DNA of 47,305 nucleotides from a virus: positions 1 through 47,305 of the IMG/VR virus record IMGVR_UViG_3300050821_004394, one strand, 5' to 3'. The notes beneath the pieces are model-generated. The model was not told where the DNA came from. It ran no database searches and saw nothing but the letters and a program-made list of their open reading frames with translations. How positions within the stretch are numbered: position 1 is the first letter of the stretch; each line of letters starts with the position of its first letter. Positions 3,026 to 36,493 of the stretch are shown in pieces. The translations under genes and the position numbers were made by a program.

Positions 3026-3044
3026 TACTAAACCCAGACGCAAA

Positions 3045-3690: not shown

Positions 3691-3892
3691 TTTCAAGCAA
3701 ATTCAAACAACGGAATACAGGGGATACCGAATAGAGACGTATAACCTTCAATCTTATGCTTTCGAGAGCAGCAGCCGGAACCGGAACCCGGTTTTAGGGG
3801 CAATCTCTGAAACCGGGAAAAGCAATTCAGTTGAAATAATCAAACAAATGATAGACGGGCGCATTGAACAGCGTAAAAAATGGCAAATATGA
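3674..3892 (+). CDS. Hypothetical protein (72 aa)
   Basis: A 72-residue polar protein (EYRGYRIETYNLQSYAFE, later EIIKQMIDGRIEQRKKW). It overlaps both the preceding 54-aa gene and the following XRE gene, consistent with translational coupling. No recognised domain. The YRGYRIET opening resembles small phage proteins of unknown function, but I cannot assign a family. Confidence 0.5.
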   Translation: MVSDSNFKQIQTTEYRGYRIETYNLQSYAFESSSRNRNPVLGAISETGKSNSVEIIKQMIDGRIEQRKKWQI

Positions 3893-4137
3893 AAGCAACA
3901 GACAGAATGATTTTACGCGACCGCAAGAAAATCGGTCGTCAAATAAAGCAAAAACGCAAGGACATGTGCTGGAGTATATACCGCCTGGGGGATGAATCCG
4001 GGGTATCCAGAACTATTGTAACAAGCATAGAGGCCGGGAATAGCTCCTATACCATCGATTCGCTTACAAAGATTCTTTACGCGCTTGATATGCGGTGTAT
4101 AGTAGGCATTGCCTTATTCGAAAGACCTAATCTTTGA
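3880..4137 (+). CDS. XRE-family helix-turn-helix regulator
   Basis: DNA-binding regulator of 85 residues. The HTH core runs from about residue 15 to 75: QIKQKRKDMCWSIYRLGDES, then GVSRTIVTSIEAGNSSYTID and SLTKILYAL, the usual helix 1, turn, recognition helix, SIEAG order of Cro/CI-type domains. There is no C-terminal domain, so it is Cro-like or an antitoxin-like HTH. The start at 3880 overlaps the upstream gene; a second ATG at 3889 is possible. It is the last gene before the oppositely oriented glycosyltransferase island and could act on the repeats at 2786-2818 (inference). Confidence 0.8.
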   Translation: MANMKATDRMILRDRKKIGRQIKQKRKDMCWSIYRLGDESGVSRTIVTSIEAGNSSYTIDSLTKILYALDMRCIVGIALFERPNL

Positions 4138-4208: not shown

Positions 4209-4865
4209 TTACAGGTTTATGTTAAAATATTGAGAATAGAATTGAAAGCTTTCCGGATCCAAGATTGATCGCAGGAATGATTTATCCGGGTCAGCATCTT
4301 TAAAGAACTCCAGCTGGGTTGTATGGCATGCGCCACCGGACATTCCCACCCCATGTTTGATTCCCATGCAAATATGGGTTTCTGGCCTATAAACAAGCCT
4401 TTGGAGGCCGCAATGTTGCCAGAGCCATATATCGGTATAGGGATCGTGATCGGCGCACCATTTCAAATTTAAATCCGGAACGATTAGAGTGTTCATTGCG
4501 CTTGACCGGGTAACATGCCGCATGGTTAAATGGGCGAATTTCCTAATATGGTAGTAAATGGTATAGTCGTGACCAAAGATATCTGGGCGACCGCGTTCAT
4601 TCCATTCTCGGGTCTGGGTTTCGAGGTAAAGTGGCGAATACCAGTCGTCGTTTTCAATGAAGGCAATAACGTCCATCCCTTGTCGGCGCATTGTTTCATA
4701 CCCGTAACGATAACGAGGGGTGATATCGCATTCCTTTGATTCGGGCTTATAGTTAATAACCGAAATTATTGAAGGTTTAAGCGTTTGAGCTTCCATCATT
4801 CGGAGGCAATTCGCCATAAAGAGGGGCCGGTCGCCGCGATCTGGTATGATTACGCCTACTTTCAT
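4209..4865 (-). CDS. Glycosyltransferase, GT-A fold (GT2-like)
   Basis: Predicted sugar transferase using a nucleotide-sugar donor. The N-terminus MKVGVIIPDRGDRPLFMANC is the usual GT-A opening strand and loop. A DxD-like metal-binding motif sits in FIENDDWYSP (about residues 69-78), the pattern of GT2-type enzymes. The length of 218 residues is a minimal GT-A domain with no membrane segment. It is the last gene of the leftward island and overlaps the methyltransferase by 4 bp (ATGA). Acceptor and sugar cannot be told. Likely roles are modification of host surface glycan or of virion proteins. Confidence 0.8.
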   Translation of the reverse strand: MKVGVIIPDRGDRPLFMANCLRMMEAQTLKPSIISVINYKPESKECDITPRYRYGYETMRRQGMDVIAFIENDDWYSPLYLETQTREWNERGRPDIFGHDYTIYYHIRKFAHLTMRHVTRSSAMNTLIVPDLNLKWCADHDPYTDIWLWQHCGLQRLVYRPETHICMGIKHGVGMSGGACHTTQLEFFKDADPDKSFLRSILDPESFQFYSQYFNINL

Positions 4866-5359
4866 TTCTCACCGAATATCATAAATGAATTATTGAGGTC
4901 GATTCCGGAGCAGAAAACATTTTTAAAGCCCTTGTCTTTGAAATAAGATTTCAATATTTCGGGGGTAAAAACGTTTACGTGCTTGCGATTGTGCCATGGT
5001 TTCCAATATTCCTGGGAGAAATCAGGGAGATAAAGGAAAAGAACTCCCCCCGTTTTAAGTTTTGAATGCCAATAATCAAGAACGTCAACCCATTTCTCGA
5101 TATGTTCTAAGCAATGGGAAGAGAATATATAATCAAGTCCATGAAATTCCTTTGGAAATTTAAGTGCTGTATATCCACCAGAGAAAGCAGAATCTATTGG
5201 GTAGGCATCTGGAAACTTCCATTCAAGACGGTTACATCCAACATCAACCCCTATGCCTTTGCACACTTCCTTTGCAAAAGGAAACGCAAATTTAGCAGCG
5301 AACCCGGTCGCCTGGAAAGCCGGGTAATTAATTCCGTTAAATTGAATGGTTTTAATCAT
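4862..5359 (-). CDS. SAM-dependent methyltransferase (class I)
   Basis: Predicted small-molecule or glycan methyltransferase. The glycine-rich SAM motif is GVDVGCN (about residues 37-43). The SSHCLEHIEKW stretch (80-90) matches the motif after strand 4 in Methyltransf_11-type enzymes, and TGGVLFLYLPD (103-113) gives strand 5. At 165 residues it is short but includes the whole core. It lies between a glycosyltransferase and small membrane genes with 4-8 bp overlaps, so it probably methylates a sugar built by the same island. Confidence 0.82.
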   Translation of the reverse strand: MIKTIQFNGINYPAFQATGFAAKFAFPFAKEVCKGIGVDVGCNRLEWKFPDAYPIDSAFSGGYTALKFPKEFHGLDYIFSSHCLEHIEKWVDVLDYWHSKLKTGGVLFLYLPDFSQEYWKPWHNRKHVNVFTPEILKSYFKDKGFKNVFCSGIDLNNSFMIFGEK

Positions 5360-5555
5360 TTTTCAATCTCTCTTTTATGCGCGATGCTATTTCTAAAAGT
5401 TCTTTGCTATATTTTAATAAAAAATCTGCCGATTCTTTAACAGTTTTTTCTCGCGCCGATAAATTAAGGCGTTCGAAAATTCTGCCGAAATAAGAACCGA
5501 CATATAATAGGAAAAATGTTTTCATCCAAAGAATGAATATCGTGTTCGAGTCCAT
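5352..5555 (-). CDS. Small membrane protein with coiled tail (67 aa)
   Basis: I chose the ATG at 5555 (MDSNTIFILW) because it leaves a natural 7-bp gap to the upstream stop at 5563; a longer reading from 5594 would overlap that gene. Residues 4-21 form one hydrophobic segment (IFILWMKTFFLLYVGSYF), followed by an amphipathic, charged helix (SADFLLKYSKELLEIASRIKE). It looks like a single-pass inner-membrane anchor with a cytoplasmic helix. Family unknown. It is the third of three consecutive tiny membrane genes. Confidence 0.55.
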   Translation of the reverse strand: MDSNTIFILWMKTFFLLYVGSYFGRIFERLNLSAREKTVKESADFLLKYSKELLEIASRIKERLKND

Positions 5556-5562
5556 GATTGTT

Positions 5563-5733
5563 TTATAAATATTTCTTTTTAAGTCCTTCCACAAAGGCTG
5601 TGATTTCGACTTCCCCTTTTGAAATAAGGCTAAGTATATGCTTGTATGCTTTCCTTTTCCCGAGCAAGGATCCGATAATCATTCCAGCCTCAAATATTCC
5701 GAAGTAAAGGAGGTAATTCCAAAGGTAACTCAT
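5563..5733 (-). CDS. Small membrane protein (56 aa)
   Basis: The start codon overlaps the stop of the upstream gene (ATGA, 4 bp). The product is MSYLWNYLLYFGIFEAGMII followed by a GSLLGKRK turn and a charged helix. It has one predicted transmembrane segment (about residues 3-24) with a basic stop-transfer sequence after it. Family unknown. The tight coupling with its neighbours on both sides is the main evidence that it is real. Confidence 0.5.
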   Translation of the reverse strand: MSYLWNYLLYFGIFEAGMIIGSLLGKRKAYKHILSLISKGEVEITAFVEGLKKKYL

Positions 5734-5909
5734 GGCTTTTTTGTTGTTAATTTTTCAAACGAATCTAATTCATTTAATATTTTTCCTTCCAAATATTTCA
5801 GCACTTCCTTTAGTCGTTTCGCTTCCTTTATTTCATAAATAAGCCACTTAACAGGAATATACATAATTGCCGAATACACGACTATGAAAACTATAATAAG
5901 TAATATCAT
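5730..5909 (-). CDS. Small membrane protein (59 aa)
   Basis: The frame opens at an ATG overlapping the stop of the GT9-like gene by 4 bp. Residues 2-20 (ILLIIVFIVVYSAIMYIPV) are a clear transmembrane segment, and the rest is a charged helix rich in Lys and Glu that ends TTKKP. It has the same plan as the next two genes: one N-terminal membrane span and a short cytoplasmic helix. No family recognised. Confidence 0.55.
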   Translation of the reverse strand: MILLIIVFIVVYSAIMYIPVKWLIYEIKEAKRLKEVLKYLEGKILNELDSFEKLTTKKP

Positions 5910-6598
5910 GGCATTGGGGTGTATTTGAATGAAGGATTAAGCTTTGAAATACCGCGCAAACCATCCTCGTTCGGGCGCGGGTATATAAAAACCTTGCCAT
6001 TTAATTGGCCCAAAGCCTGAAGGATATAGAAAGTACAGGTACTTATATGGTGATTTTCTTCCGCAAACTTCATAAGTAGGCACCAATCAAGGACATTGTA
6101 ATTTGGTTTTTGATGCATCTTAACCGTTTTGATTAAGGTCAATGGATTTATTTCAATTGATCCGGCCTGCGAATCCTCGTTAACGAGAATAAACCTTTCC
6201 TTTTCGCTTAACCCTAGTTCAACCATAAGGCAGACGGCTTTCTCTGGCAAAAATTGAAGTTGTATATCTTTCCACATTTCTGGATCTAATCCCGCAAGCC
6301 GGTATTTATCGCCCATCATGTTTTCATAGTCTGAATGGTCATTTCTATCCAGGCCGCGAACGATTTGATTTGCGAATCGTGTGGGAAGATATTCTGGATT
6401 ATTCATGTCCATGGACTCGTAGTCGAGCGCAAACTTTGATTTAGGAACAAAACGCGCGTCCTCGATATAATGTTCGAGCCACATTAAATGATCCATAACC
6501 GGAACTATTGGGCGAATGCCGTCCCGCTCCCGGAAGTGCCTAAACATTGGCTGAAGAAAAAGTAGATCTCCGATTGAGTGGAGTTGGTTAATGACCAT
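5906..6598 (-). CDS. GT-B-type glycosyltransferase (GT9/heptosyltransferase-like)
   Basis: A 230-residue protein opening MVINQLHSIGDLLFLQPMFR. The GD(x)LFLQP pattern at residues 10-17 is characteristic of the N-terminal nucleotide-sugar transferase fold of GT9-like (ADP-heptose:LPS heptosyltransferase-related) proteins in Bacteroidota. The C-terminal part contains WCLLMKFAEENHHISTCTFY and KVFIYPRPNEDG, fitting the donor-binding half. GT9 enzymes are normally near 350 residues, so this is a reduced version. Context: glycosyltransferase island, overlapping the neighbours by 1-4 bp. Confidence 0.65.
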   Translation of the reverse strand: MVINQLHSIGDLLFLQPMFRHFRERDGIRPIVPVMDHLMWLEHYIEDARFVPKSKFALDYESMDMNNPEYLPTRFANQIVRGLDRNDHSDYENMMGDKYRLAGLDPEMWKDIQLQFLPEKAVCLMVELGLSEKERFILVNEDSQAGSIEINPLTLIKTVKMHQKPNYNVLDWCLLMKFAEENHHISTCTFYILQALGQLNGKVFIYPRPNEDGLRGISKLNPSFKYTPMP

Positions 6599-6834
6599 TA
6601 TATCTGGTTCTTTTTAGCATTGTTTTCGGCTTTTTTAAAGTTAGCCTCACGCATGAAAGGAATGCATTCTTTATATATGCAGGAAGCATCGGGAGTAAAT
6701 ATCCAGGTGTCGGTATTTATTAACCCCTTAAATTTAGTAGGAACCCACTCTCTGGTGGTTTCATCCCTTACTAACCCCATTACTTCAGTTGCTTTTACCA
6801 TAACGCGCGCTTTGATCTCATTTTTAAATCCCAT
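6598..6834 (-). CDS. Hypothetical protein in glycosyltransferase island (78 aa)
   Basis: A 78-residue basic protein (IKARVMVKATEVMGLVRDET, then WIFTPDASCIYKECIPFMRE and a Lys/Asn-rich tail). Its stop overlaps the next gene's start by 1 bp. The listed start overlaps the upstream glycosyltransferase by 40 bp; an alternative ATG at 6801 would cut the overlap to 7 bp. No family recognised. Confidence 0.5.
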   Translation of the reverse strand: MGFKNEIKARVMVKATEVMGLVRDETTREWVPTKFKGLINTDTWIFTPDASCIYKECIPFMREANFKKAENNAKKNQI

Positions 6835-7478
6835 TCAACTTGTTTTGTATGTCTTTCCTGAAGATAATGGTGGCCCATATTGTGTTGTAAATTGAAAGGG
6901 CTCATTCTCTTTTGGTACATTAAATGCCGTTCAAACAGGCGATCAAAGCCTCCTATACAACGGAAATGCAATAACCGGCATGTGCCATCCTGGGTAATAT
7001 GCCCGGTGCGCCAGTTCTTATGGCAGCCGTGTACAAAGTTTATCTCGTCGATAAAATTTGGATTAAAGATTGCCTGCTTAGAATAGTTATCGGAAAACTC
7101 CCCGGTCTTAATTTCGGTTATATCTTCTTTTGGAAGTTCATCGGAAATCATATCGTACCCGGTAACTCTTGGGAGGGTCCCGCGAAGATCGTCTGGCATA
7201 ACAAACTCATCGGCATCGACCACAATAACATAATCGCATTTACCCCTTTGTTCTTTCCAGCAATGGTTTTTAACGTCCAGGTAATGCTGATCGTTTAATT
7301 GGCCTTGCATCCCGAAATTACGCACCTCAATACCAAGGTTAATGGCAAGCGCAACACTTCCATCCGTAGAATGATTATCATACATAACAATCTTCTGGCA
7401 GAATTTTGAGTAATGCTTGTGCAGGAATGGTATGTAAAAAGAATCGTTATAATTAATGAAATAGCATACTATCTTCAT
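6795..7478 (-). CDS. Glycosyltransferase family 2/92-like
   Basis: Predicted glycosyltransferase of 227 residues. The N-terminus MKIVCYFINYNDSFYIPFLH with VMYDNHSTDGS (32-41) matches the GT2/GT92 opening where the nucleotide is held. The metal-binding DxD is in VIVVDADEFVMP (84-95). A His/Arg-rich C-terminal half (HLMYQKRMSPFNLQHNMGHH) is typical of acceptor regions in this group. It overlaps the next 58-aa gene by an ATGA. With its neighbours it probably builds or decorates a surface glycan; the exact sugar is not readable. Confidence 0.82.
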   Translation of the reverse strand: MKIVCYFINYNDSFYIPFLHKHYSKFCQKIVMYDNHSTDGSVALAINLGIEVRNFGMQGQLNDQHYLDVKNHCWKEQRGKCDYVIVVDADEFVMPDDLRGTLPRVTGYDMISDELPKEDITEIKTGEFSDNYSKQAIFNPNFIDEINFVHGCHKNWRTGHITQDGTCRLLHFRCIGGFDRLFERHLMYQKRMSPFNLQHNMGHHYLQERHTKQVEWDLKMRSKRALW

Positions 7479-7651
7479 GCTGTCATTTTTATACCCATTC
7501 GCCGGGCGATTTCAGAAGTAATTTCCTTTTTTATTTCGGATGATTTTTTTACAAGACTCGAATCTACACTGTAGATTTGTCCTTCAAAAATATCAAGCAG
7601 AGTAAATCTGTCGATTAATTCCCGGTCGGTTAATTCTGTTAGGGGTTTCAT
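7475..7651 (-). CDS. Hypothetical small protein (58 aa)
   Basis: A short gene with ATG at 7651 and a stop overlapping the next start by 4 bp. The product is polar and helical (LTELTDRELIDRFTLLDIFE, then SSEIKKEITSEIARRMG). No recognised domain. Coupled reading on both sides is the main support. Confidence 0.45.
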   Translation of the reverse strand: MKPLTELTDRELIDRFTLLDIFEGQIYSVDSSLVKKSSEIKKEITSEIARRMGIKMTA

Positions 7652-7660
7652 ATAATAGTT

Positions 7661-7765
7661 TTAGAAATTAAATGTCCATTCCCATGTTTTGTTTTCTTCA
7701 TTCCAATATAAGCGAGCAAACCCAAGCTCCTTACATATCCGGCAAACCCTTATAAATTTATTCAT
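7661..7765 (-). CDS. Hypothetical micro-protein (34 aa)
   Basis: A 34-residue open frame (NKFIRVCRICKELGFARLYW, ending WEWTFNF) whose ATG overlaps the end of the upstream glycosyltransferase by 8 bp. It contains one CxxC pair, which is half of a zinc ribbon. It fills an otherwise empty 107-bp gap in a very tightly packed operon. Low confidence because of length. Confidence 0.35.
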   Translation of the reverse strand: MNKFIRVCRICKELGFARLYWNEENKTWEWTFNF

Positions 7766-8357
7766 GCGTCGATCTCCCTTCCCCTATATGTAGGCAAACC
7801 CCCGGATCGAGCATGGCAACTTTATATCCGGCATCGTAAACCTGTTTAGCGATATCTTGTTCCCATTGCGCGAAAGGAATAAATTGTTTAAGAATATCGA
7901 TCCGGGTAACGCCAGGGTTCCAGGAGAACCCATGCCAAAGAATACCGTCTGTTGATTCCCAAGGTTTGAGTAAGCCCCAATTAATCGTCTGCACTGGGTC
8001 TGCTCCTTCCGGCCTTCCTTTCTTATATCCGATAGTAATTGTTTTATCGAACTCGCAAGGGTGTACGGCATCGGCGCGGCAGAGAACCTTTATAATTGAG
8101 GGGTCGGATTGCATTATTAAAAGGCTGGCCCGGATCCAATCGTATGAATTAGTAAAGCCCCAATCTTCCTCCAGGTGGATGTAATATTTGTTATCCCGAT
8201 TATCGAGAAAGGTTTCAATTGAATTATGCTGGCCCATTCGGGATAAACCATCCTCGTGAACGGTTATAAAGACTTTCCTTTTAAGGTCGCGCTGGAAGCT
8301 TTCAATCGTTTGGCAAAGAAGGTCGGGCCTGCCGCAGGCTGTGATAAGTGCTTCCAT
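7758..8357 (-). CDS. Glycosyltransferase, GT-A fold
   Basis: A 199-residue predicted glycosyltransferase. MEALITACGRPDLLCQTIES is a GT2-like opening with a first strand and a Arg-Pro loop. A DxD-like acidic motif is in YIHLEEDWGFT (59-69), the place where GT-A enzymes bind the metal/nucleotide. GFSWNPGVTR (about 143-152) resembles the acceptor-loop WNP motif found in related phage and polysaccharide transferases. It lies 2 bp from the neighbouring 55-aa gene. The substrate is not identifiable. Confidence 0.78.
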   Translation of the reverse strand: MEALITACGRPDLLCQTIESFQRDLKRKVFITVHEDGLSRMGQHNSIETFLDNRDNKYYIHLEEDWGFTNSYDWIRASLLIMQSDPSIIKVLCRADAVHPCEFDKTITIGYKKGRPEGADPVQTINWGLLKPWESTDGILWHGFSWNPGVTRIDILKQFIPFAQWEQDIAKQVYDAGYKVAMLDPGVCLHIGEGRSTHE

Positions 8358-8359
8358 TA

Positions 8360-8527
8360 TTATTCGGGCAATGGTTTCATTATTATTGCTTGAAGATTAC
8401 GAATATGTGAAATTGGTATATCTGTTTGTCCTGGATGGGCTTTTATATACCCCACAGCTTCTTTTAATGCATGTTTTGCAGCATCGCGTTCCATTTCTGC
8501 TCGCCATCTGGCTTTGGTTGTTTTCAT
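8360..8527 (-). CDS. Hypothetical small helical protein (55 aa)
   Basis: I chose the ATG at 8527 since it overlaps the upstream stop by one base (TAATG); a longer start at 8542 lies inside the previous gene. The sequence is charged and helical (KARWRAEMERDAAKHALKEA) and ends with a proline-rich turn. Unknown family, possibly a small coiled-coil partner. Confidence 0.5.
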   Translation of the reverse strand: MKTTKARWRAEMERDAAKHALKEAVGYIKAHPGQTDIPISHIRNLQAIIMKPLPE

Positions 8528-9210
8528 TAATAGTGAATGCAATTAAGTTTATGAATATGGGCGAAGTAACTGAACATCCGCTCGCAAAGGAAGGCGTGGT
8601 AAGTATAATGGGTAACGCCGAACTGTTTCTGAAGGTTTTCTGGGAGTGGGCCATAGCCGCTGTTTTCCATTAACTCCGGCATTTCCTTCATAATATCCAT
8701 GGCCGGGGCGAGCATTTCAGTAACATAACGCTCATAAATGGGCGATTTTGCCACAAAGGAATTGCAATAAAACACATTTTCAAGCCTTCCAAGATGCCCC
8801 GGATACCCTATTTTACTCATTATCTCATTGAAGAAATGCGAGAATTTAGAATGAAATTGATTAGCGAACATAACCGGATCGTGGGGTACGTGCCTTTGAA
8901 AGCTCATAACGTCTGGGGCATGCCGTTTTAATTCAATCGCAAATGATTCTGGGGTAAACTCATTAGTGGAATGATTGGCAATATTTGGCATTGACCGCCA
9001 TTGCTGTTTCATTTGATATCCGAGTTTGTGTTTCAGCTTCCAGGATACCACCCCAAAGTACTCGGCCCCGATATGCGCTTGATTTTCGACCATCATCCGG
9101 ATGGGGGAATTTTCAAAGAACACGGTACACTCCTTATTAAGGTGAGGTATATAGATAAGATTGGGTAATTGTTCGGCTTGGTAGTAAATCTGGTAAACCC
9201 TTAGAAACAT
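8527..9210 (-). CDS. Probable glycosyltransferase-like protein, first gene of island
   Basis: A 227-residue soluble protein. The opening (FLRVYQIYYQAEQLPNLIYI) and the late segment YHAFLCERMFSYFAH resemble the plan of small capsular-type glycosyltransferases, where a conserved ERLFS-like motif closes the domain. I cannot name a specific family, so the call depends partly on neighbours. It is the promoter-proximal gene of the leftward island, with a 26-bp leader after the TATATTTG box (read leftward) at 9243-9236. Confidence 0.5.
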   Translation of the reverse strand: MFLRVYQIYYQAEQLPNLIYIPHLNKECTVFFENSPIRMMVENQAHIGAEYFGVVSWKLKHKLGYQMKQQWRSMPNIANHSTNEFTPESFAIELKRHAPDVMSFQRHVPHDPVMFANQFHSKFSHFFNEIMSKIGYPGHLGRLENVFYCNSFVAKSPIYERYVTEMLAPAMDIMKEMPELMENSGYGPLPENLQKQFGVTHYTYHAFLCERMFSYFAHIHKLNCIHY

Positions 9211-9234: not shown

Positions 9235-9304
9235 GCAAATATAATTTATATTCCATTTGAAATGGAAAACATTGTCTAATTTATTTAGACAAGGTGTATT
9301 TTTA
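9235..9304. promoter_or_regulatory. Divergent promoter/operator module, copy 1
   Basis: The region between the glycosyltransferase island and the tail operon. In order: CAAATATA at 9236-9243 (a leftward TATATTTG box), the perfect 17-bp palindrome TTCCATTTGAAATGGAA at 9251-9267, a second palindrome with arms TTGTCTAA and TTAGACAA around 5 bp at 9272-9292, and TATTTTTA at 9297-9304, a near match to the TAnnTTTG box, reading rightward. All elements recur with the same spacing at 22944-23013. An extra half site TTTAGACAA lies just upstream, near 9222. Confidence 0.75.
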
Positions 9305-9328: not shown

Positions 9329-10855
9329 ATGGGAAACAATGCCGTTGCACAGAACCGAGTATCCGCAGTCGTTGGCTATTTACTTTCAACCGGCAATTTT
9401 GCAACAGCATCCCCGTTTCTTCCACAGAGGATAGCGATGTTTGGTGAGGCTAACCACGCAAACCAAGGATTATCAACGCTTACAACGCCCACACAAATTA
9501 CATCGGCAAAGCAGGCCGGTGATTTATACGGTTACGGATCCCCGCTTCATATAATGTCCCGCATTCTTTTCCCTGTTACGGGAAATGGCGGGATCGGCAG
9601 CGTTCCGCTTTGGGCTTACCCACAGGCTGAAGCTGGAAGCGCAACGTCTAAAAAAATTGAGATTACCCCCTCCGGTGTTGCAACCGCAAACGGAACCCAT
9701 TATTTAGCAATCGCAGGCCGGGAAGGCTTGGATGGCCAATTTTACGCACTGAACATTGTTGTTGGGGATAACGCGGCAACGATTTCTCAAAAAATTGCCA
9801 ACGCGGTAAACGCGATCCTGGGCTGCCCCATGACCGCTGTTGCCACGCCTTACGTTTGCGACCTTGAAAGCAAATGGAAAGGTCTTACAGCGGATGCCCT
9901 TTCGATCACGGTTGATACCGGAACTCCTGCAAACAGCCTGGGTATTACTTACGGCATAGCCTCTATTCAGAGCGGCTCGGCCACGCCTGATGTTACTGCT
10001 TCGCTTAATCTTTTCCAAGATATCTGGAACACCCTTGTAATAAACTCTTACGGAACAAATACAACCGTTATGGCTTCCCTGGAAGCGTTTAACGGCGTTC
10101 CTGACCCCGTTAACCCGACAGGCCGTTTCGTTGGAATTGTTATGAAACCATTTACGGCTGTTACCGGCTCAACTGACGACGATCCTTCTGCAATTACGGA
10201 TGCGCGTTTGAATCAGTTGACGATTGCCATTGCCCCGGCCCCACGTTCGGCTGGCCTTTCAATGGAAGCGGCAGCAAATATGATCGTTCTGGCCATGTAT
10301 TTGGTAAACGACCCCGAGTTGGATGTTCAGGGAATGAAATACCCCGATATGCCCACCCCACTTGTTATTGGTTCAATGGCCGATTACAACAACCGGGATA
10401 TCATGGTTCAGAAAGGTTGCTCCACGGTCGTTCTTAGCGCGGGCCAATACAAGATAAAGGATTTTGTTACCACCTGGCACCCGGTTGGGGAGATACCCCC
10501 ACAGTTCCGTTATGTACGGAATTTCATGATTGACCTCAATATCCGGTTTATGTACCATATCCTAGAAATGGAGAATGTGGAAAACAAGGTTATTGCAGCG
10601 GATGCGGATCAGGTTGCGGGGCCGAACATTGTTAAACCAAAACAATGGAAGCAGATCATCGATTCTTTCGCTAAAGAATTGGTGGCCCAGGCTTTGGTAA
10701 CTGATGCAAACTTTATGCAGGCTTCAGTAACCGTTGCGCTGAACCCAAGAAACCCCGACAGGTTTGATACTTTCTTCAAATACAAGCGGACAGGCTTCGC
10801 CCGTATTTTGAGTACCCAGGCGCAGGCCGGGTTTAATTTCGGAACTACAAATTAA
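9329..10855 (+). CDS. Contractile tail sheath protein (Mu gpL-like)
   Basis: Forms the sheath that contracts around the tail tube during injection. I start it at the ATG in CCCCATGGGAAAC (9329, 508 aa), since a reading from 9257 would use TTG and start inside the operator. The opening NAVAQNRVSAVVGYLLSTGN is followed by APAPRSAGLSMEAAANMIVL and FRYVRNFMIDLNIRF, the latter being typical of the conserved C-terminal sheath domain, with TDANFMQASVTVALNPRNPDR near the end. It is directly followed by the tube gene, as in Mu. First gene of the rightward tail operon. Confidence 0.85.
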   Translation: MGNNAVAQNRVSAVVGYLLSTGNFATASPFLPQRIAMFGEANHANQGLSTLTTPTQITSAKQAGDLYGYGSPLHIMSRILFPVTGNGGIGSVPLWAYPQAEAGSATSKKIEITPSGVATANGTHYLAIAGREGLDGQFYALNIVVGDNAATISQKIANAVNAILGCPMTAVATPYVCDLESKWKGLTADALSITVDTGTPANSLGITYGIASIQSGSATPDVTASLNLFQDIWNTLVINSYGTNTTVMASLEAFNGVPDPVNPTGRFVGIVMKPFTAVTGSTDDDPSAITDARLNQLTIAIAPAPRSAGLSMEAAANMIVLAMYLVNDPELDVQGMKYPDMPTPLVIGSMADYNNRDIMVQKGCSTVVLSAGQYKIKDFVTTWHPVGEIPPQFRYVRNFMIDLNIRFMYHILEMENVENKVIAADADQVAGPNIVKPKQWKQIIDSFAKELVAQALVTDANFMQASVTVALNPRNPDRFDTFFKYKRTGFARILSTQAQAGFNFGTTN

Positions 10856-20148: not shown

Positions 20149-20642
20149 ACCTGGTAAAAGTCTATTCAACTTCGGTCGATAATCTTAAACGGACAATTGT
20201 TAAGTTTCTCCGTTATGGGAAGTCCGATGTCCAAACTTCAATGCAGGCGGCTCCTTATGGAATAGATCACAATCCAATAAAGGATATGATTGCTATTTAT
20301 GGGGAGACGGCAAAGAATGGGGATACAGTAATTGTGGGTTATATCAATAAGAACGCGAAGGCCGGGGAGGGGGAATTGAGGTTATTTTCTACGGATGCCA
20401 ATGGAACCGAGAAGATGTATCTCTGGCTCAAAGCCAATGGAACAATGGAACTCGGGGGAAGTGCGGATAATGTCGTGAAATATACCCCGCTTAATTCGGG
20501 CCTTGCAGCCTTCCAGGCTCAAATACAGGCCCAGCTTGTTTTGATTGCGGCGGGGATTGCATCCGCAGGAGGATCGTATTCTCCAGGAACTTTAAACATT
20601 AATATTTCGGCTTCAAAGGTCGCCCAACTCAAAACCCCATGA
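20145..20642 (+). CDS. Baseplate spike protein, Mu gp45-like
   Basis: A 165-residue protein following the hub gene, the position of the central spike (gp45/gpV) that pierces the outer membrane. The middle contains an OB-fold-like stretch GDTVIVGYINKNAKAGEGEL and RLFSTDANGTEKMYLWLKAN, then GTMELGG, as in gp45 where the OB domain passes into a beta-helix. The C-terminus is Ala/Gln-rich and helical (LAAFQAQIQAQLVLIAAGIA). I do not see the HxH metal motif of classic spike tips. Confidence 0.75.
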   Translation: MNLVKVYSTSVDNLKRTIVKFLRYGKSDVQTSMQAAPYGIDHNPIKDMIAIYGETAKNGDTVIVGYINKNAKAGEGELRLFSTDANGTEKMYLWLKANGTMELGGSADNVVKYTPLNSGLAAFQAQIQAQLVLIAAGIASAGGSYSPGTLNINISASKVAQLKTP

Positions 20643-20722
20643 AAGAGTTAATCGTTGCGTTTTTTCGTGTTGTCTATTATTTCTGTACAGAAAAAGTGTT
20701 AAGAATCAAACCAAAAGGTTAA
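20639..20722 (+). CDS. Possible micro-protein (27 aa)
   Basis: A 27-codon open frame whose ATG overlaps the spike stop by 4 bp (ATGA). It encodes KELIVAFFRVVYYFCTEKVL, with a basic end. It has a hydrophobic aromatic core and could be a tiny membrane-associated peptide. The coupling is good but the length gives little statistical support. A perfect palindrome TTTCTGTACAGAAA (20680-20693) lies inside it. Confidence 0.3.
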   Translation: MKELIVAFFRVVYYFCTEKVLRIKPKG

Positions 20723-20732
20723 ATTTGTAAAC

Positions 20733-21056: not shown

Positions 21057-22734
21057 GAACATCTGGAATCAAATAAGCGTTTTCCTTAACCCGACTCCAA
21101 AAATGGAGTCTAAGAAGGTGGTGCAGGCCGATTATTCCGGTAGCGGAGGTGTTGGCTTTCGTTTCATGTTTGCCACAGGATTTACCGGGGAAAAGAACCT
21201 TGGGGAAATGGGGCCGCTGAAGGATTATAAACCGGATTACGCTATTTTAACTTTACGCTCCTGGCAGGCGTTTCTTGAAAGCGATGTGGCCCAGACAATC
21301 ATTGGGAGGAAAGTAAAATGGGTTATAGGTAAGGGACTGAAGCTTCAGGCCGAACCAGCGACAGATATACTAAAAGAGGAGGGGTTTAATTTCGATAATC
21401 AGAAGTTTTGCAACTCTGTTGAGGCGCGCTTCAATCTCTTTAAAAAATCCCTTTCCTCGGATTATGCTGGTATGAATACTCTCGATGAGCTTGCCAGCGA
21501 AGCGTATAAAAACGCAATTGTCGGCGGGGATGTCTTGGTTGTATTACGACTCGTTGATGCGGTTCCCAAGGTTCAATTAATTGATGCCTGCCATATAATG
21601 TCTCCCCAATATGGAAATGAAATATTTCCTTTGGTATTACCTAATGGGAACGTGGTAAGGAATGGGGTGGAGTTGGATATGAAAAAGAGAATCGTGGCTT
21701 TTTATGTTCGGCTTTGGGAGAACCCGAATGATATTTTTAAGTTCGAACGGATCCCGGCCCGGATTGAGGGATTGGATATAGAATGCGCCTTTTTAATTTA
21801 CGGATTGAAATTCCGCCTGGATAGCGTTCGCGGACTTCCCCTTCTTTCCGTTGTCCTTGAAACGCTTAAAAAACTTGATCGTTATAAAGAGGCAGCAGTT
21901 GGTGGTGCAGAAGAGCGTCAGAAAGTAGCATATACAATCGTTCACAATAAGCAATCAACGGGCGAGAATCCTTTCGGGAAACAACTTGTTAAAGCTTTCG
22001 ATTCAAGCAATCCCCGGAATGAGGATATGGCAAAGGATACGGTGGGAAATAACCTTGCAAATACAATCGCGGCGACAACCCAGAAACAGGTCTTTAATCT
22101 CCCTATTGATTCTGAGATAAAAATACTTGCCAATGGGCAGGAGTTAACGTTTAAAGAATTTTTCAGCGTAAACTCGGATCACGCCTGCGCTGCGGTTCAG
22201 ATACCACCAAACGTTGCATTTTCAAAATACGAGGATAGTTTCTCTGCTTCCAGGGCCGCGCTTATGGATTGGCAAAACACGCTCGATGTTGATAGGGATG
22301 GTTTTCAATTTTACAGAAAGATTTATGGTTTCTGGTTTACCATACAGGTTCTCCAGAACAAAATACAAGCACCTGGATATTTAGCAGCCTTGTATGCTGG
22401 GGATTCAATGGTTATTGATGCTTATCTAAAAGCCCGTTTCATCGGCGCGCCGGTTCCGCATATCGATCCGGTTAAGGAAGTAAAAGCCATAAGGGAGAAA
22501 CTTGGATTAACCGGAGAGAGTTTGCCGCTTATGACCCTTGAGGCTGCAACCGAAGCACTGAGCGGAGGAGAGGCTAATCATAACATGGAGCAGTATGCAG
22601 AGGAGCTTCAGAAATCGAAGGATCTTAAAATATTCGAACAGCCTATGACCGTTCAACCTGATGGGGGAAATGTTGGTGGGAAGCCTTCCCCTATACCTGG
22701 GAAGAAAGGCAAAAAACCTGTAAAGAAAAATTAA
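21043..22734 (+). CDS. Portal protein, lambda gpB-type
   Basis: Forms the dodecameric ring through which DNA enters and leaves the head. At 563 residues the length is typical. The motifs follow phage_portal_2: LTLRSWQAFLESDVAQTIIG, then AYKNAIVGGDVLVVLRLVDA (about 165-185), PKVQLIDACHIMSP, FRLDSVRGLPLLSVVLETLK (with the RG-x-P signature) and AAVGGAEERQKVAYTI. The C-terminus is polar and ends in KGKKPVKKN. It follows the gpW-like gene with a 14-bp overlap, as in lambda (W-B). Its stop overlaps the convergent RHH gene by 4 bp. Confidence 0.9.
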   Translation: MADTKNIWNQISVFLNPTPKMESKKVVQADYSGSGGVGFRFMFATGFTGEKNLGEMGPLKDYKPDYAILTLRSWQAFLESDVAQTIIGRKVKWVIGKGLKLQAEPATDILKEEGFNFDNQKFCNSVEARFNLFKKSLSSDYAGMNTLDELASEAYKNAIVGGDVLVVLRLVDAVPKVQLIDACHIMSPQYGNEIFPLVLPNGNVVRNGVELDMKKRIVAFYVRLWENPNDIFKFERIPARIEGLDIECAFLIYGLKFRLDSVRGLPLLSVVLETLKKLDRYKEAAVGGAEERQKVAYTIVHNKQSTGENPFGKQLVKAFDSSNPRNEDMAKDTVGNNLANTIAATTQKQVFNLPIDSEIKILANGQELTFKEFFSVNSDHACAAVQIPPNVAFSKYEDSFSASRAALMDWQNTLDVDRDGFQFYRKIYGFWFTIQVLQNKIQAPGYLAALYAGDSMVIDAYLKARFIGAPVPHIDPVKEVKAIREKLGLTGESLPLMTLEAATEALSGGEANHNMEQYAEELQKSKDLKIFEQPMTVQPDGGNVGGKPSPIPGKKGKKPVKKN

Positions 22735-22940
22735 TCGTTTATTGGCGGTCGACGCATTCTATCCGAATAACTCTCCACAATCTTTCTTAAATGCGGCTTT
22801 AAAATAGCCGATAAGTTATTGCCTTCATTCTTTGCAATGTTGTGTAATTGTTCCAGAATTTCTTCGGGAACCCCCGTAATTCTTAATTCAGGAGTAAGTC
22901 CTTTCTCCTTAAAATCCTTTACCTGTCTTTTTTTCCGCAT
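22731..22940 (-). CDS. Ribbon-helix-helix transcriptional regulator
   Basis: A 69-residue protein with the Arc/CopG order: basic N-terminus (MRKKRQVKDFKEKG), a DNA-contact strand PELRITGVP (about 17-25), helix A EEILEQLHNIAKNE (26-39), an NN-LS turn and helix B SAILKPHLRKIVESY (44-58). It would bind DNA as a dimer of dimers at a palindrome. The gene is read leftward, out of the divergent module at 22944-23013, so it probably autoregulates and also acts on the identical module at 9235. The -7 box ends only 4 bp before the ATG, so the mRNA may be leaderless. Confidence 0.75.
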   Translation of the reverse strand: MRKKRQVKDFKEKGLTPELRITGVPEEILEQLHNIAKNEGNNLSAILKPHLRKIVESYSDRMRRPPIND

Positions 22941-22943
22941 GAT

Positions 22944-23013
22944 GCAAATATAAAATTTATTCCATTTGAAATGGAAAGCATTGTCTAAAATAAATAGACA
23001 ACGTTTATTTTTA
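22944..23013. promoter_or_regulatory. Divergent promoter/operator module, copy 2
   Basis: Same elements as at 9235-9304. CAAATATA at 22945-22952 (leftward TATATTTG), palindrome TTCCATTTGAAATGGAA at 22960-22976, second palindrome with arms TTGTCTA and TAGACAA around 7 bp at 22981-23001, and TATTTTTA at 23006-23013. The distances box to palindrome 1 (15 bp), palindrome 1 to 2 (21 bp) and palindrome 2 to rightward box (25 bp) are the same as in copy 1. It drives the RHH gene leftward and the protease/capsid genes rightward. Confidence 0.78.
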
Positions 23014-23021
23014 CGAGCATA

Positions 23022-23990
23022 ATGAAGAAAGAACTCTATCTCTATTCGGGTATTTACGATTTCACTATTCAGGATCTCCTGGAGAAGATGGAAGCCTGTG
23101 GGGAAGAGGATATGAATATTCGCATTTGCTGCGGAGGTGGTAACATCTTTGCGGCTTGGGGCTTTTACGCTAAAATGAAGGAAGTTCCTGGCGATGTTAC
23201 CCTGAAGGTTGATGGAATGGCCGCGAGCGCAGCCGCATACGCCCTTCTGTTCTGCGATAAGAGCGAGGCTATTGAAACATCAACAATTATGCTTCACAGG
23301 GCTTCCGGGCCAGTAAGTAACCAAGCCGACCAAGATTTTCTCGATCAAAAAAATGCGGATCTCCGCAAAAGGCTCACCGCCAAAATAGATGGTAAGAAAC
23401 TCAAAGAACTCAAGGGTGTAACCATTAAAGACCTTTTTGAAGCCACCGAACGCATAGACGTTTATTTGACGGCAAAAGAAGCCGAGCAAATTGGACTGAT
23501 TGATAAAACAGTTCCGGTTAACGCCACTGAAATACGCGCAATCAACGAGCGGATGTACAATATTGCTGCGGAGCATACGCCCCCCACTCCTCCTATACAA
23601 CAACCACCAAATTCTAAACCTATGGATCTGATCAAATTTAAAGCCGAACACCCTGCATTGTATAAAGAACTTTTTGCAAAAGGGGTTGAAAAAGGAACAG
23701 CCAAAGAACGCGACCGTGTTGGTTCTATTCTCGCTTTCCTGGATGCGGATCCAAAAGCTGTAAAGGCTTTGATTACCGAAGGTAAAGAATTGACGGCCAC
23801 TCAGACTTCCGAGTTTGTTATCAAAATGAACAGCCCTGAAGTTCTGGCAAAAATTGCTGCGGTTGCAACGCCTCCTGTTAAAACCGGAGAACCGGATACC
23901 AAAGAAGTCTCTGCCGAAGAGAAACGCCTTGCAACCATTGAGGCTGCAACCAGGAAAGAACTCGGTCTGGACAAAGAAGTAAAAAAATAA
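23022..23990 (+). CDS. Prohead protease (ClpP/S49-type) fused to scaffold-like domain
   Basis: Processes the scaffold and capsid during prohead maturation. ClpP-type serine protease core in residues 1-165: the Ser nucleophile is in DGMAASAAAY (Ser69), His in MLHRASG (His92) and the likely Asp in ERIDVYLTAKEAEQIGLID (Asp146). A Pro-rich linker (about 186-200) leads to a helical, charged C-terminal half of about 120 residues that looks like scaffold. An internal ATG at 23622 (MDLIKFKAEHPALYKELF) could yield the scaffold alone, like lambda Nu3 inside C. First gene after operator copy 2. Confidence 0.85.
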   Translation: MKKELYLYSGIYDFTIQDLLEKMEACGEEDMNIRICCGGGNIFAAWGFYAKMKEVPGDVTLKVDGMAASAAAYALLFCDKSEAIETSTIMLHRASGPVSNQADQDFLDQKNADLRKRLTAKIDGKKLKELKGVTIKDLFEATERIDVYLTAKEAEQIGLIDKTVPVNATEIRAINERMYNIAAEHTPPTPPIQQPPNSKPMDLIKFKAEHPALYKELFAKGVEKGTAKERDRVGSILAFLDADPKAVKALITEGKELTATQTSEFVIKMNSPEVLAKIAAVATPPVKTGEPDTKEVSAEEKRLATIEAATRKELGLDKEVKK

Positions 23991-32570: not shown

Positions 32571-32831
32571 ATGAAAAACTGGAAAACTACATTGTTCGGC
32601 CTTTTGGCTGCTGGTTGCGGACTTATGTCCCAGGTTACACCTCAATATTCCGGGATATTGGTTCCGGCGGCGGCGGCATTTACCGGGATATTGGGAATTG
32701 TTGCGAAGGATGGCAATGTAACCGGCGGCACAATTGCGGCAACTCCTGAAGCTTTATATCGCATTCATGATATAGAGCCGAAACAACCAAGTAAATTATC
32801 ACAAATCGTTGCTATTCTTTTAAACAAATGA
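32571..32831 (+). CDS. Small membrane protein in lysis cassette (86 aa)
   Basis: The start I chose (MKNWKTTLFGLLAAGCGLM) avoids an upstream-frame extension inside the DUF5675 gene. Two hydrophobic stretches (about 6-20 and 29-44: ILVPAAAAFTGILGIVAKDG) suggest two membrane spans, followed by a polar tail and a last hydrophobic stretch SQIVAILLNK. It resembles the small phage membrane proteins next to endolysins in Bacteroidota phages (antiholin or second holin). Overlaps the patatin gene by 4 bp. Confidence 0.55.
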   Translation: MKNWKTTLFGLLAAGCGLMSQVTPQYSGILVPAAAAFTGILGIVAKDGNVTGGTIAATPEALYRIHDIEPKQPSKLSQIVAILLNK

Positions 32832-33700
32832 TAAAGAATCTTGTTTTTAAGGGGGGGGGGGTTCTAGGTATAGCTTATGCCGGGGCTTTGCATGAATTAG
32901 AAGCCAACGGAACCATGGCATCGGTTGAAAGGGTTGCGGGAACGTCAGCGGGGGCGATTGCGGCCTGTTTGATTGCTCTCCGGTATAATGCTGCGGATGT
33001 GGCTGATATCGTTGGGAAAACCGATTTTAAGGCTTTTGAAGACGGGGAGAATCCCTTCCGGCTTCTAACCAAATACGGGCTATATGATGGCCAGGTGTTT
33101 TTGGATTGGATCCGGGAAAAGATCACGGCAAAGGTTTCGAAGCAAGATGCTACATTTTCCGATTTAAACCGGGCTGGATGTTTGGATTTGCACGTCTTTG
33201 CCACCGATCTGAACACCCAATCCCTAAAACGGTTTTCCTTCGCAGAAACTCCCGATACAATCGTTGCGGAGGCCATCCGGGCTTCCATGTCTATTCCCCT
33301 TTTCTTTCATGCGTGGCAATTCTCGAACTCGATCCCAGATAATCATATTTACATCGATGGGGGAGCGGTATATAATTATCCCCTTACAGCCTTCGATGCG
33401 GATGGGGATAATCTAGAAACCATTGGTTTCTTTCTGAATAGCAAATCCTCGTTTTGTGATTTCGGGTTCGATAGCCCGATTAAATATATCGTTCAGCTTG
33501 CCGAAACCGCCCTAAATAGCCAGAACATAAACCTGGAAGAGGATAAGGAAGAGCAAAGCCGGACGGTCATGATTGACTCCATGGGAATTTCTTCCACGGA
33601 TTTCGGACTGGATGTCCTTCAGAAAACGGCCCTTTTCGAATCGGGCCGGGAAGCAATTATCAATCATTTTAAGAATGTCTCCGAACCGCCACCCCAATAA
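32828..33700 (+). CDS. Patatin-like phospholipase
   Basis: Predicted acyl hydrolase (phospholipase A-type) of 290 residues. All parts of the catalytic site are present: the oxyanion-hole Gly-rich loop FKGGGVLGIAYAGALHELE (7-25), the nucleophile elbow VAGTSAGAIAA (Ser40), and the catalytic Asp in YIDGGAVYNYPL (Asp177). The C-terminal 100 residues are charged and helical. It is the last gene of the lysis block and is followed by a strong terminator. It could attack membrane phospholipid at lysis. The GGG loop is coded by an 11-G tract; ten Gs would give a stop at codon 12. Confidence 0.88.
   Translation: MIKNLVFKGGGVLGIAYAGALHELEANGTMASVERVAGTSAGAIAACLIALRYNAADVADIVGKTDFKAFEDGENPFRLLTKYGLYDGQVFLDWIREKITAKVSKQDATFSDLNRAGCLDLHVFATDLNTQSLKRFSFAETPDTIVAEAIRASMSIPLFFHAWQFSNSIPDNHIYIDGGAVYNYPLTAFDADGDNLETIGFFLNSKSSFCDFGFDSPIKYIVQLAETALNSQNINLEEDKEEQSRTVMIDSMGISSTDFGLDVLQKTALFESGREAIINHFKNVSEPPPQ
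32851..32861 (+). repeat. G11 homopolymer in the patatin active-site loop
   Basis: Eleven Gs read as AAG GGG GGG GGG GTT (KGGGV). One base fewer gives GGG TTC TAG, an immediate stop, and one more gives a frameshift. The present length is the in-frame (ON) state. Confidence 0.88.
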
Positions 33701-34560: not shown

Positions 34561-35541
34561 ATGACAACCTTACATAAGTTCAGTAACTTACTTAACCTGC
34601 TCACCTACTTCAAGGATGAGCAGGTTTGCTTAGATTATTTAGAGCAAATCAGATGGAATGGCGAGTTGAAATGCGTGTACAATGATTGCGAAGGTGGTAA
34701 GATTCACCGATGCGCAAACCATCGGTATAAGTGTGCGACTTGTAAGCGCATATATTCTGTGAAAGTCGGCACTATCTTCGAGGGCAGCAAGTTGCCTTTA
34801 CAGAAATGGTATGCAGGTATATACCTGATAACCGCACACAAGAAAGGCATTTCGTCCTTGCAATTATCCCGTGATCTTTCCATAACTCAGAAGTCGGCAT
34901 GGTTCCTTTTACACCGCGTTCGCTTTTCACTTGGCTTAAATGCCGGATCAGAAAAGTTGAAGGGAATTGTTGAAGCCGATGAGACTTTCATCGGAGGTAA
35001 CGAAAAAAATAAGCACAAAAGCAAAAAGACAGAAGATAATCAGGGGCGATCTTTGAAAACAAAGTCAGCCGTTGCCGGGGTAATTGAACGAGGCGGTGAA
35101 CTTCGCGCAAAGCAAGTTGATAGCACTAAAGGCTATCATTTGAAACCTTTTGTTATTTCTCATACAGATTTCGGAAGCAAACTAATGACCGATGAATGGA
35201 TAGGCTACAAGGGCTTGTCAGCATTATACAAGCATTCGTTCGTCAAGCACAATGAAGGCGAGTACGTAACAGGCGATTGTCATACTAACGCAATGGAAGG
35301 CTTCTGGTCGCTCTTAAAGCGTGGAGTAAATGGAATCTATCATAGCGTTAGTAGTAAGCACTTACAGCGTTATGTAGATGAGTTCGTATTTCGCTATAAC
35401 ACACGTACAAATTCCGAAGCAGGCCGCTTCGACGCAATGTTAAATAACATTTCAGCCAGGCTAACTTACAACACACTTATAAATGCAGATAACAGAAATA
35501 ATAGACAAGTGGCATCTGAACAAGGCTCACTTGGCTTGTAA
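34561..35541 (+). CDS. IS1595-family (ISXO2-like) DDE transposase
   Basis: A 326-residue transposase. The N-terminal zinc ribbon has Cys at 38, 43, 58 and 61 (LKCVYNDC, YKCATCKR), then an HTH-like segment (LQLSRDLSITQKSAWFLLHR). The catalytic acidic residues are all present: Asp140 in GIVEADETFIGG, Asp211 in LMTDEWIGYKG and Glu246 in HTNAMEGFWSLLKRG. I could not find terminal inverted repeats on either side, and the gene is packed with its neighbour (59-bp overlap with the next gene). It may be a phage-owned gene rather than a free insertion sequence. Confidence 0.85.
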   Translation: MTTLHKFSNLLNLLTYFKDEQVCLDYLEQIRWNGELKCVYNDCEGGKIHRCANHRYKCATCKRIYSVKVGTIFEGSKLPLQKWYAGIYLITAHKKGISSLQLSRDLSITQKSAWFLLHRVRFSLGLNAGSEKLKGIVEADETFIGGNEKNKHKSKKTEDNQGRSLKTKSAVAGVIERGGELRAKQVDSTKGYHLKPFVISHTDFGSKLMTDEWIGYKGLSALYKHSFVKHNEGEYVTGDCHTNAMEGFWSLLKRGVNGIYHSVSSKHLQRYVDEFVFRYNTRTNSEAGRFDAMLNNISARLTYNTLINADNRNNRQVASEQGSLGL

Positions 35542-35751: not shown

Positions 35752-36021
35752 CTAAACTATAGGTATAATCTCATATATAGTTACCAAAACTATAATGGCT
35801 GCAATAATGGCTGCAATAACTTTTGCCTTTTGTTCCGCGCTTAGTTTCCCTTGCCGATTTGCTTCGGTTGCGCGCAAGATCTCTCCCCTTTCTTTAGGGT
35901 TAAATTGGCATCCGCAATTTAAGCAAGTAATAACGAGTCTGTTTTTTACTCCGGGGGGAAGTTTGTTTTTTTCAATATACCTTTTGAGCATTCGGCCCTC
36001 ATGTAGCATTGAATACCTCAT
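35752..36021 (-). CDS. Hypothetical tail-anchored membrane protein
   Basis: An 89-residue protein. The start overlaps the repressor stop by 4 bp (ATGA). A basic N-terminal half contains ITCLNCGCQFNPKERGEI, a CxxCxC cluster (about 33-38) that may bind zinc, and it ends with a strong hydrophobic segment (VIAAIIAAIIVLVTIYEIIP), i.e. a C-terminal membrane anchor. Together with the repressor it forms a leftward two-gene operon, so a lysogeny-linked role such as superinfection exclusion is possible (inference). Confidence 0.6.
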   Translation of the reverse strand: MRYSMLHEGRMLKRYIEKNKLPPGVKNRLVITCLNCGCQFNPKERGEILRATEANRQGKLSAEQKAKVIAAIIAAIIVLVTIYEIIPIV

Positions 36022-36377
36022 AAGGCTTTCCGTTTAAGAGTTTGCTTCTTATTCGGCATTAATTCTTTCTCTAATTGAGATACGCGCCTAAGTAAATAAT
36101 TAATCGTTTGCTTTTGTTCTGGATTCGTTTCAGGAATTGCGGGTTTTATCATTGCCCCTTCTCCCCTTATAAGCCATTCCATACTTACATCAGGAAATTC
36201 CGTGGCTATTTTTTCCAATAATTCACAGCTGGGTTTGCTTCCCCTGCCCCCTTCCCCTGTACTCACAATATGCCCCATCGAAACGTCTGAAGTCCTTACC
36301 CGCATTGCAAAAGATCGGATGTTAAGCCCCTTCTCTTTCATTAAAATCCTCAAACGTTCATTGATACTAACAATCAT
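36018..36377 (-). CDS. CI-like XRE repressor
   Basis: A 119-residue HTH regulator (NERLRILMKEKGLNIRSFAM with RVRTSDVSMGHIVSTGEG; the stretch EKIATEFPDVSMEWLIRGEG is the hallmark of Bacteroidota phage repressors: the W-L-x-x-G-E-G after the HTH). The C-terminal part is a charged helix for dimerisation (INYLLRRVSQLEKELMPNK). It is divergent from the early gene at 36477, with three CAATCAWTTG sites between, the first overlapping its own start codon, so it very likely represses the early promoter and itself. Confidence 0.85.
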   Translation of the reverse strand: MIVSINERLRILMKEKGLNIRSFAMRVRTSDVSMGHIVSTGEGGRGSKPSCELLEKIATEFPDVSMEWLIRGEGAMIKPAIPETNPEQKQTINYLLRRVSQLEKELMPNKKQTLKRKAL

Positions 36378-36423
36378 TTGTTAATAAATATGCAATCATT
36401 TGTTTGGACAATACAATCAATTG
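36371..36423. promoter_or_regulatory. Three operator half sites CAATCAWTTG
   Basis: CAATCATTTG at 36371-36380 and 36393-36402, and CAATCAATTG at 36414-36423. The starts are 22 and 21 bp apart, two turns of DNA, so they lie on one face. The first overlaps the repressor ATG; the other two lie before the rightward promoter box, the last overlapping the -33/-7 spacer. Confidence 0.7.
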
Positions 36424-36435
36424 AGTGTATATTTG
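36403..36435 (+). promoter_or_regulatory. Rightward early promoter
   Basis: TTTG at 36403-36406 and TATATTTG at 36428-36435, separated by 21 bp, a good match to the Bacteroidota -33/-7 pattern. It serves the rightward genes from 36477 onward and is covered by operators 2 and 3. Confidence 0.65.
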
Positions 36436-36462
36436 CCTTATAGTATTGCCCAGAACTCTTGC

Positions 36463-36493
36463 CAAATATACCTAGAATGAAGCTCAAAACCAA
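36463..36493 (-). promoter_or_regulatory. Leftward repressor promoter
   Basis: On the minus strand, TATATTTG (CAAATATA at 36463-36470) with TTG at 36493-36491, 20 bp upstream. It would start RNA near 36456 and read left across the rightward promoter toward the repressor ATG at 36377, so the two promoters face each other. The leader is about 80 nt. Confidence 0.55.

Follow-up and report, generated by a model that had tools for sequence, protein, structure and literature searches.

A conserved divergent control module with a probable RHH operator, duplicated before the tail and head operons of a Bacteroidota-type myovirus

The window analysed here, a whole IMG/VR virus record of 47,305 bp, belongs to a myovirus of the Bacteroidota-infecting type and encodes terminase, sheath, portal, a Clp-type head protease and capsid. 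Its sheath is about 45% identical to those of Flavobacterium and Cellulophaga phages, related sheaths are present in Pedobacter genomes, and no close DNA relative was identified among cultured phages by megablast. The question raised by this genome is why the same 70-bp string of elements stands in it twice, once before the tail genes and once before the head genes, and what it does there. A sequence-only reading had proposed a phage-specific late-gene switch that involves an RHH (ribbon-helix-helix) regulator and joins morphogenesis to surface modification.

The two copies occupy positions 9235-9304 and 22944-23013, lie 13,709 bp apart and form one repeat family in a repeat search of the window, with 86% identity over 70 bp. 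Each comprises, in order, CAAATATA (leftward TATATTTG), the palindrome P1 (TTCCATTTGAAATGGAA), the palindrome P2 (TTGTCTA-N7-TAGACAA) and TATTTTTA. In the first copy the leftward box TATATTTG lies at 9236..9243 on the minus strand, towards a glycosyltransferase island, P1 at 9251..9267 (centre 9259), P2 at 9272..9292, in the spacer of the rightward promoter, and the rightward box TATTTTTA at 9297..9304 on the plus strand. Their counterparts in the second copy are found at 22945..22952 (minus strand), 22960..22976 (centre 22968), 22981..23001 and 23006..23013 (plus strand). The sequence-only reading was right that both intergenic regions share these elements, at identical start-to-start spacings of 15, 21 and 25 bp, and that the sequence between them differs: 10 of 10 mismatches between the copies fall within the 23 non-motif columns, for which the figure of 2.9e-6 under random placement is descriptive, since the motif borders were drawn after the fact. 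P1 and P2 occur in the window at these two places only; with up to three mismatches and both strands counted P1 gave 5 matches against 0.57 expected, and for P2 the expectation was 0.00. The argument that a 21-bp spacing puts both palindromes on the same DNA face is inexact, because the palindromes are unequal in length and their centres are 23 bp, about 2.2 turns, apart.

The first leftward gene at copy 1 (8527..9210, minus strand) has no Pfam match itself and adjoins a glycosyltransferase/methyltransferase island (4209-9210) with GT2 and methyltransferase Pfam matches. To the right lies the tail sheath gene (9329..10855, plus strand, start ATG at 9329; PHROG 165, E 4e-84; 45% identity to the sheath of Cellulophaga phage phiSM), first of the tail operon. 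Copy 2 is the spacer between the gene of a 69-aa RHH-like protein of Arc/CopG type (22731..22940, minus strand), the putative P1 binder, which is divergent from the module, and the gene of the Clp/S49-type head maturation protease (23022..23990, plus strand; PF00574, E 3e-16; PHROG 94), first of the head operon.

Both boxes of the module correspond to the -7 element of Bacteroidota promoters, TAnnTTTG (PMC7366714), the rightward one with 5/6 positions and the leftward one with 6/6. The rightward boxes are assigned to the promoters of the tail (sheath) operon and of the protease/capsid operon, and the leftward box of copy 2 to the promoter of the RHH gene. A scan of the window for sigma-70-type promoters, run alongside a terminator scan, did no better than chance, as expected for a Bacteroidota-type phage. 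A -33 TTTG was present 18-22 bp upstream in 2 of 43 late promoters versus 25 of 454 at any TAnnTTTG, that is, without enrichment; this weighs little, since the motif is not always present in Bacteroidota and had not been identified in promoters of Flavobacterium johnsoniae (PMC7366714). In most lineages just 5-10 nt lie between the -7 box and the ATG of the protease (window, 23006-23022; G001, G002, G004, G006, G009 and G013), and the protease mRNA may therefore be leaderless; exceptions are G007 and G011, and the sheath copies have longer leaders.

Relatives were sampled as sheath-bearing contigs from IMG/VR, using non-redundant regions upstream of related sheath genes. In 27 such regions with a perfect -7 box, the boxes being chosen without regard to palindromes, palindromicity peaked exactly 37.0 bp upstream of the box (3.44 of 7 pairs versus at most 3.19 in 300 shuffles). 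With boxes of 5/6 accepted the set grows to 66 regions, the two copies in the window included, and a strong palindrome was identified at a distance D of 37 bp in 17 regions, at 38 bp in 7 and at any other distance in 0-4. In 16 sites the rightward box at one of these two distances, 37 or 38 bp, was perfect. In copy 1 the distances from the P1 centre are 38 bp to the rightward box, which lies downstream, and 16 bp to the leftward box; among 45 sites examined, perfect leftward boxes were concentrated at 15-17 bp from the centre of the palindrome, so that P1 lies inside the leftward promoter. The sequence of the palindrome varies by lineage (TTCCATT, TTCCGTT, TTACATT, CTGTAGC, ATGCCG, TTAGCA, TGTCTAA and others), and near half of the fetched contigs have no strict palindrome at D 37 or 38. 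The exact P1 plus P2 composite has no match in IMG/VR beyond the record itself. A search for P1 plus box gave seven loci, of which L004, L356 and L358 are genuine (the last two being the L041/L043 contigs) and the remaining four were rejected as chance matches within unrelated coding sequence. The contig L004 keeps copy 2 with all four elements, in which just the central base of P1 has changed, and with different spacers.

The full sequences of twenty contigs were scanned for a palindrome, a distance of 37 or 38 bp, a box and an ORF. The contig's own palindrome was identified before the sheath and before the protease, and before these two genes only, usually 13-15 kb apart. Sheath and protease sites agreed in 11 of 21 contigs at D 37/38, compared with 0-1 at five control spacings and 0-1 in shuffled genomes; the 11 contigs amount to about nine lineages because G002/G003 and G013/G014 are near-duplicates. 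In most genomes the sheath promoter is most like the protease promoter of the same genome, and in several contigs without a strict palindrome up to 95 nt of promoter sequence are common to both genes. On sequence comparison, the site, its spacing and a regulon of two promoters can be regarded as established. The idea of a phage-specific switch common to the tail and protease/capsid operons thus gains from the geometry in relatives, from the 11 of 21 contig pairs and from the promoter resemblance; lack of conservation beyond chance in related phages had been named as the outcome that would count against it, and the opposite was found, both for the geometry and for the two-site pairs.

Near-identical duplicates of 49-95 nt stand ahead of sheath and protease in G018, G019 and G020, which suggests that promoter copying or gene conversion may keep the sites alike. 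Such movement of promoter copies would also fit a duplicate that is just a recent mobile or recombinogenic repeat with no regulatory role. We find this very hard to credit, as in the window the spacers have diverged and the motifs have not, and motif and spacing are kept across many lineages of otherwise different sequence. Equally improbable is that the palindromes serve as intrinsic terminators or RNA hairpins between operons: T-runs follow the palindrome in some relatives (e.g. L010 and L055), but the window copies have none, the site keeps a fixed distance to the downstream -7 box and lies between divergent genes, two promoters separated by 13-15 kb within a genome carry identical arms, and the palindrome covaries with a DNA-binding protein, as described below.

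The RHH gene is widely shared among the contigs and, besides one glycosyltransferase-like gene, is the sole gene so shared that is neither a virion nor a packaging gene. Its homologues are on the minus strand just left of the protease promoter, between portal and protease. A profile search, in which the best 80 matches per scan were taken of several hundred portal relatives, gave at least 82 distinct RHH relatives, all on the minus strand and nearly all at this locus, with a portal-like ORF on one side in at least 71 and a protease-like ORF on the other in at least 68. The AlphaFold2 model of the window protein (pLDDT 80) has helices at 26-39 and 43-57 after a strand-length segment, in line with the beta-alpha-alpha fold of about 45 residues by which RHH proteins are recognised. 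Its best PDB fold matches in Foldseek were CopG (1b01), Arc (1bdv/1par) and AmrZ (3qoq), with probabilities up to 0.87-0.90 and a weak E of 0.5, as expected for a 69-aa monomer. By direct search the window protein had no match in Pfam or PHROG, and among 23 relatives five matched Pfam RHH_5 weakly (best E 0.0025) and five the Arc-like repressor of PHROG 582 (best E 8e-5). A profile search of PDB sequences gave mostly spurious matches to designed proteins. No counterpart was identified in cultured phages by tblastn at E up to 1, nor any RHH match in FCV-1, phiSM and the stretch of FL-1 examined. Tandem RHH proteins, with two domains per chain, are present in G006, G009, G011, L208, L286 and L350, and such a chain may act as a built-in dimer.

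The link between this protein and P1 comes from 24 dereplicated protein-operator pairs (median protein identity 31%), in which the operators were assigned blind to the protein; three records (G008, G005 and G009) use their sheath-promoter operator. Of 414 pairs of protein column and half-site base, the three with the highest scores are those of beta-strand residues 1, 2 and 3 with bases -6, -5 and -4. The residues correspond to HMM columns 8, 10 and 12, which are exposed and alternate, and the bases are consecutive. Each score was reached in 0 of 1000 permutations, a null that ignores shared ancestry, and the other protein columns, which have the same phylogeny, serve as an internal control for kinship. 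At residue 2, Arg goes with C-5 in 21 of 21 pairs, Val with T in 2 of 2, and Trp with G; at residue 3 (base -4), Thr goes with A (5/5), Gln with T (4/4) and Arg or Lys with C (8/9); at residue 1, Glu goes mostly with C, Thr and Arg with G, and Asp with A. A natural swap between the close relatives L350 (IRLQ, TTTGCTA) and L286 (IRLR, TTTGCCA) follows the prediction. Exceptions are G011 and L219 (Arg with A-4), L273 (Thr with G-4) and L349. Among RHH genes left out of the covariation, having no strict site, a clear palindrome is present in some only, and about 4 of the 7 with a usable residue agree with the code (L246, L174, G019 and L184, as opposed to L273, L219 and L349). In staphylococcal SmpO the single substitution F7K switches the site specificity of an RHH protein (PMC8136818).

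Alternate beta-strand residues read operator bases in RHH proteins, and the covariation has this form; the window protein therefore very probably binds P1, which supports its involvement as seen by the sequence-only reading. A different binder, either a host factor or another phage regulator, with the RHH gene merely a neighbour, is improbable. The link rests on comparison of sequences, and two HTH proteins are also encoded in the window (36018-36377 and 3880-4137), but neither HTH gene has a homologue in 20 relatives, sites that differ from one phage lineage to the next are not what a host factor would use, and the residues that covary with the operator are exactly the DNA-contacting positions of the RHH beta-strand.

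Taken together, the module is a genuine, conserved and phage-keyed late-gene control module built on an RHH protein. From these comparisons we consider it probable that it works as a divergent promoter pair with a shared RHH operator, in which rightward activation and leftward repression are both inferred. P1 would serve as operator for the RHH protein that the phage itself encodes (22731-22940). Its centre is 38 bp upstream of each rightward -7 box, around -51 from the presumed start, where an RHH dimer or tetramer could touch RNA polymerase and so activate the tail and head operons together. On the other side a distance of 16 bp to the leftward -7 box places P1 between the -33 and -7 regions of the leftward promoter, which bound RHH protein would block; this would give autorepression at copy 2 and shut off the glycosyltransferase side at copy 1. 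An early-made RHH protein would accumulate until its own gene is off and both morphogenesis operons are on. As the RHH beta-strand is particular to each lineage and the operator matches it, the switch would be keyed to the phage.

Activation as against repression, and the late timing, are what we infer, and the main rival is that RHH protein binds P1 and only represses, keeping the late operons and itself off until removed or outcompeted. Dual activators and repressors exist among RHH proteins, such as AmrZ and H. pylori NikR, although most RHH regulators are repressors (PMC3325190). P1 also overlaps the promoter of the RHH gene itself, and P2, located in the spacer of the rightward promoter, would fit added repression. 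Repressor sites usually overlap the core promoter and tolerate variable spacing. P1, on the contrary, spans about -60 to -42, ahead of the rightward core promoter, at a distance of 37/38 bp that hardly varies, and the -33 element is not enriched. P1 stays there in the many lineages that lack a leftward gene and have terminase, in the same direction, immediately ahead of the sheath promoter, and its role therefore concerns the rightward promoter. Pure repression is on these grounds held to be rather unlikely. Whether this is an undescribed large phage RHH family that acts as a reciprocal switch, its regulators and operators having diverged together to the point that a simple code of one residue to one base can be read from them (Arg-C/G at residue 2; Thr-A, Gln-T and Arg/Lys-C at residue 3), we judge to be evenly balanced.

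As to the composite of both palindromes, P1 proved general and P2 confined to the lineage of the window, being identified in the window and its close relative L004/G001 only. The P2 centre is 15 bp from the rightward -7 box, as the P1 centre is 16 bp from the leftward one, and this mirrored position suggests a second regulator. P2 may tentatively be seen as an extra site of the lineage, probably for a second, negative regulator. Two identities for it were rejected: a CI operator, as a different repeat precedes the CI-like gene, and a weaker RHH site, as just 3 of 7 arm positions agree in register. In the region 36018-36480 the CI-like repressor gene (minus strand) is preceded by the repeat CAATCATTTGTT, a candidate operator unrelated to P1 and P2. 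Also discarded was a candidate operator ahead of the portal (TTGTCTATTATTTCTG at 20670), which would have marked a third regulated promoter but lies inside a small conserved ORF. This ORF (20640-20724, MKELIVAFFRVVYYFC...) precedes the portal cluster, is conserved in L004 and contains a 17-bp stretch that recurs inverted at 35492-35508.

The joining of morphogenesis to surface modification stands in part. In G004, G006, G007 and L025 glycosyltransferase-like genes, whose products start with VIIPDRxDRP, point away from the sheath promoter, so that the arrangement recurs in several lineages; it is dispensable, as these genes sit elsewhere in other lineages and terminase precedes the sheath in many. 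The coupling is a recurrent and not a defining feature of the module.

Other elements were identified in the window. The sequence CCAGACGCAAAATG recurs at 3034, 3318, 3515 and 36727, one copy having a mismatch, and the copies at 3034 and 36727 extend into the start codon (ATG) of a small ORF, possibly as a shared early leader; its counts in the window at up to three mismatches are not above chance (three copies are exact). An IS1595/ISXO2-type transposase ORF (34561-35541) lies within the phage record, with a 47% relative in G020, and an ORF for a patatin-like phospholipase (32828-33700) is found downstream of the tail-fibre region.

Little has been described of late-gene control in Bacteroidota phages, and the known RHH proteins are for the most part repressors; a literature search, with most subscription papers outside it, gave neither RHH late activators nor late promoters of this phage group. 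The repeat of one genome led to a family of dozens of regulators paired with their operators, at one fixed position in the genome, in which both partners carry matching changes. These pairs make it possible to test how an RHH beta-strand specifies DNA and whether activation occurs from about -51 at a TAnnTTTG promoter, and they give a sequence rule for locating the late promoters of these uncultured phages. If true, the reciprocal switch possibly stops co-infecting relatives from firing each other's late genes.

A close likeness in action is to Ogr of phage P2 and Delta of P4, where a small phage activator turns on several operons for morphogenesis by way of a dyad (TGT-N12-ACA) present at every late promoter (PMC3931495). 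One small phage protein and a dyad site at each late promoter are also the components proposed here. The Ogr site is near -55, and the upstream position of P1 is similar. However, Ogr is a zinc-finger protein that works with sigma-70 polymerase, whereas the window has an RHH protein and a Bacteroidota -7 box; its operator is keyed to the lineage, and the RHH gene points away from one of the operons that its product would control. The window protein has no cysteine, and thus no CX2CX22CX4C, and its operator differs from TGT-N12-ACA. It is not an Ogr, though it may act in an Ogr-like manner. Phage Mu C has a dyad upstream of weak late promoters, one of them before protease/capsid genes, and belongs to a different DNA-binding family, the comparison being one of descriptions.

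In structure the window protein resembles Arc and Mnt of P22 and CopG, small beta-alpha-alpha proteins whose beta-strand reads a palindromic operator. Arc is known as a repressor, while the position of the site in this Bacteroidota phage predicts activation of late operons together with autorepression. AmrZ of P. aeruginosa is similar to the proposal in that it activates some genes and represses its own (PMC3325190), but it is a cellular regulator that activates from 282 bp upstream, and the site in the window is fixed and promoter-proximal. Finally, SmpO of the staphylococcal pWBG749-family plasmids is an RHH protein whose specificity diverges with its cognate DNA, as here (PMC8136818); it acts at oriT in conjugation and comprises five subtypes, whereas the pairs described in these phages would act at promoters and number dozens.
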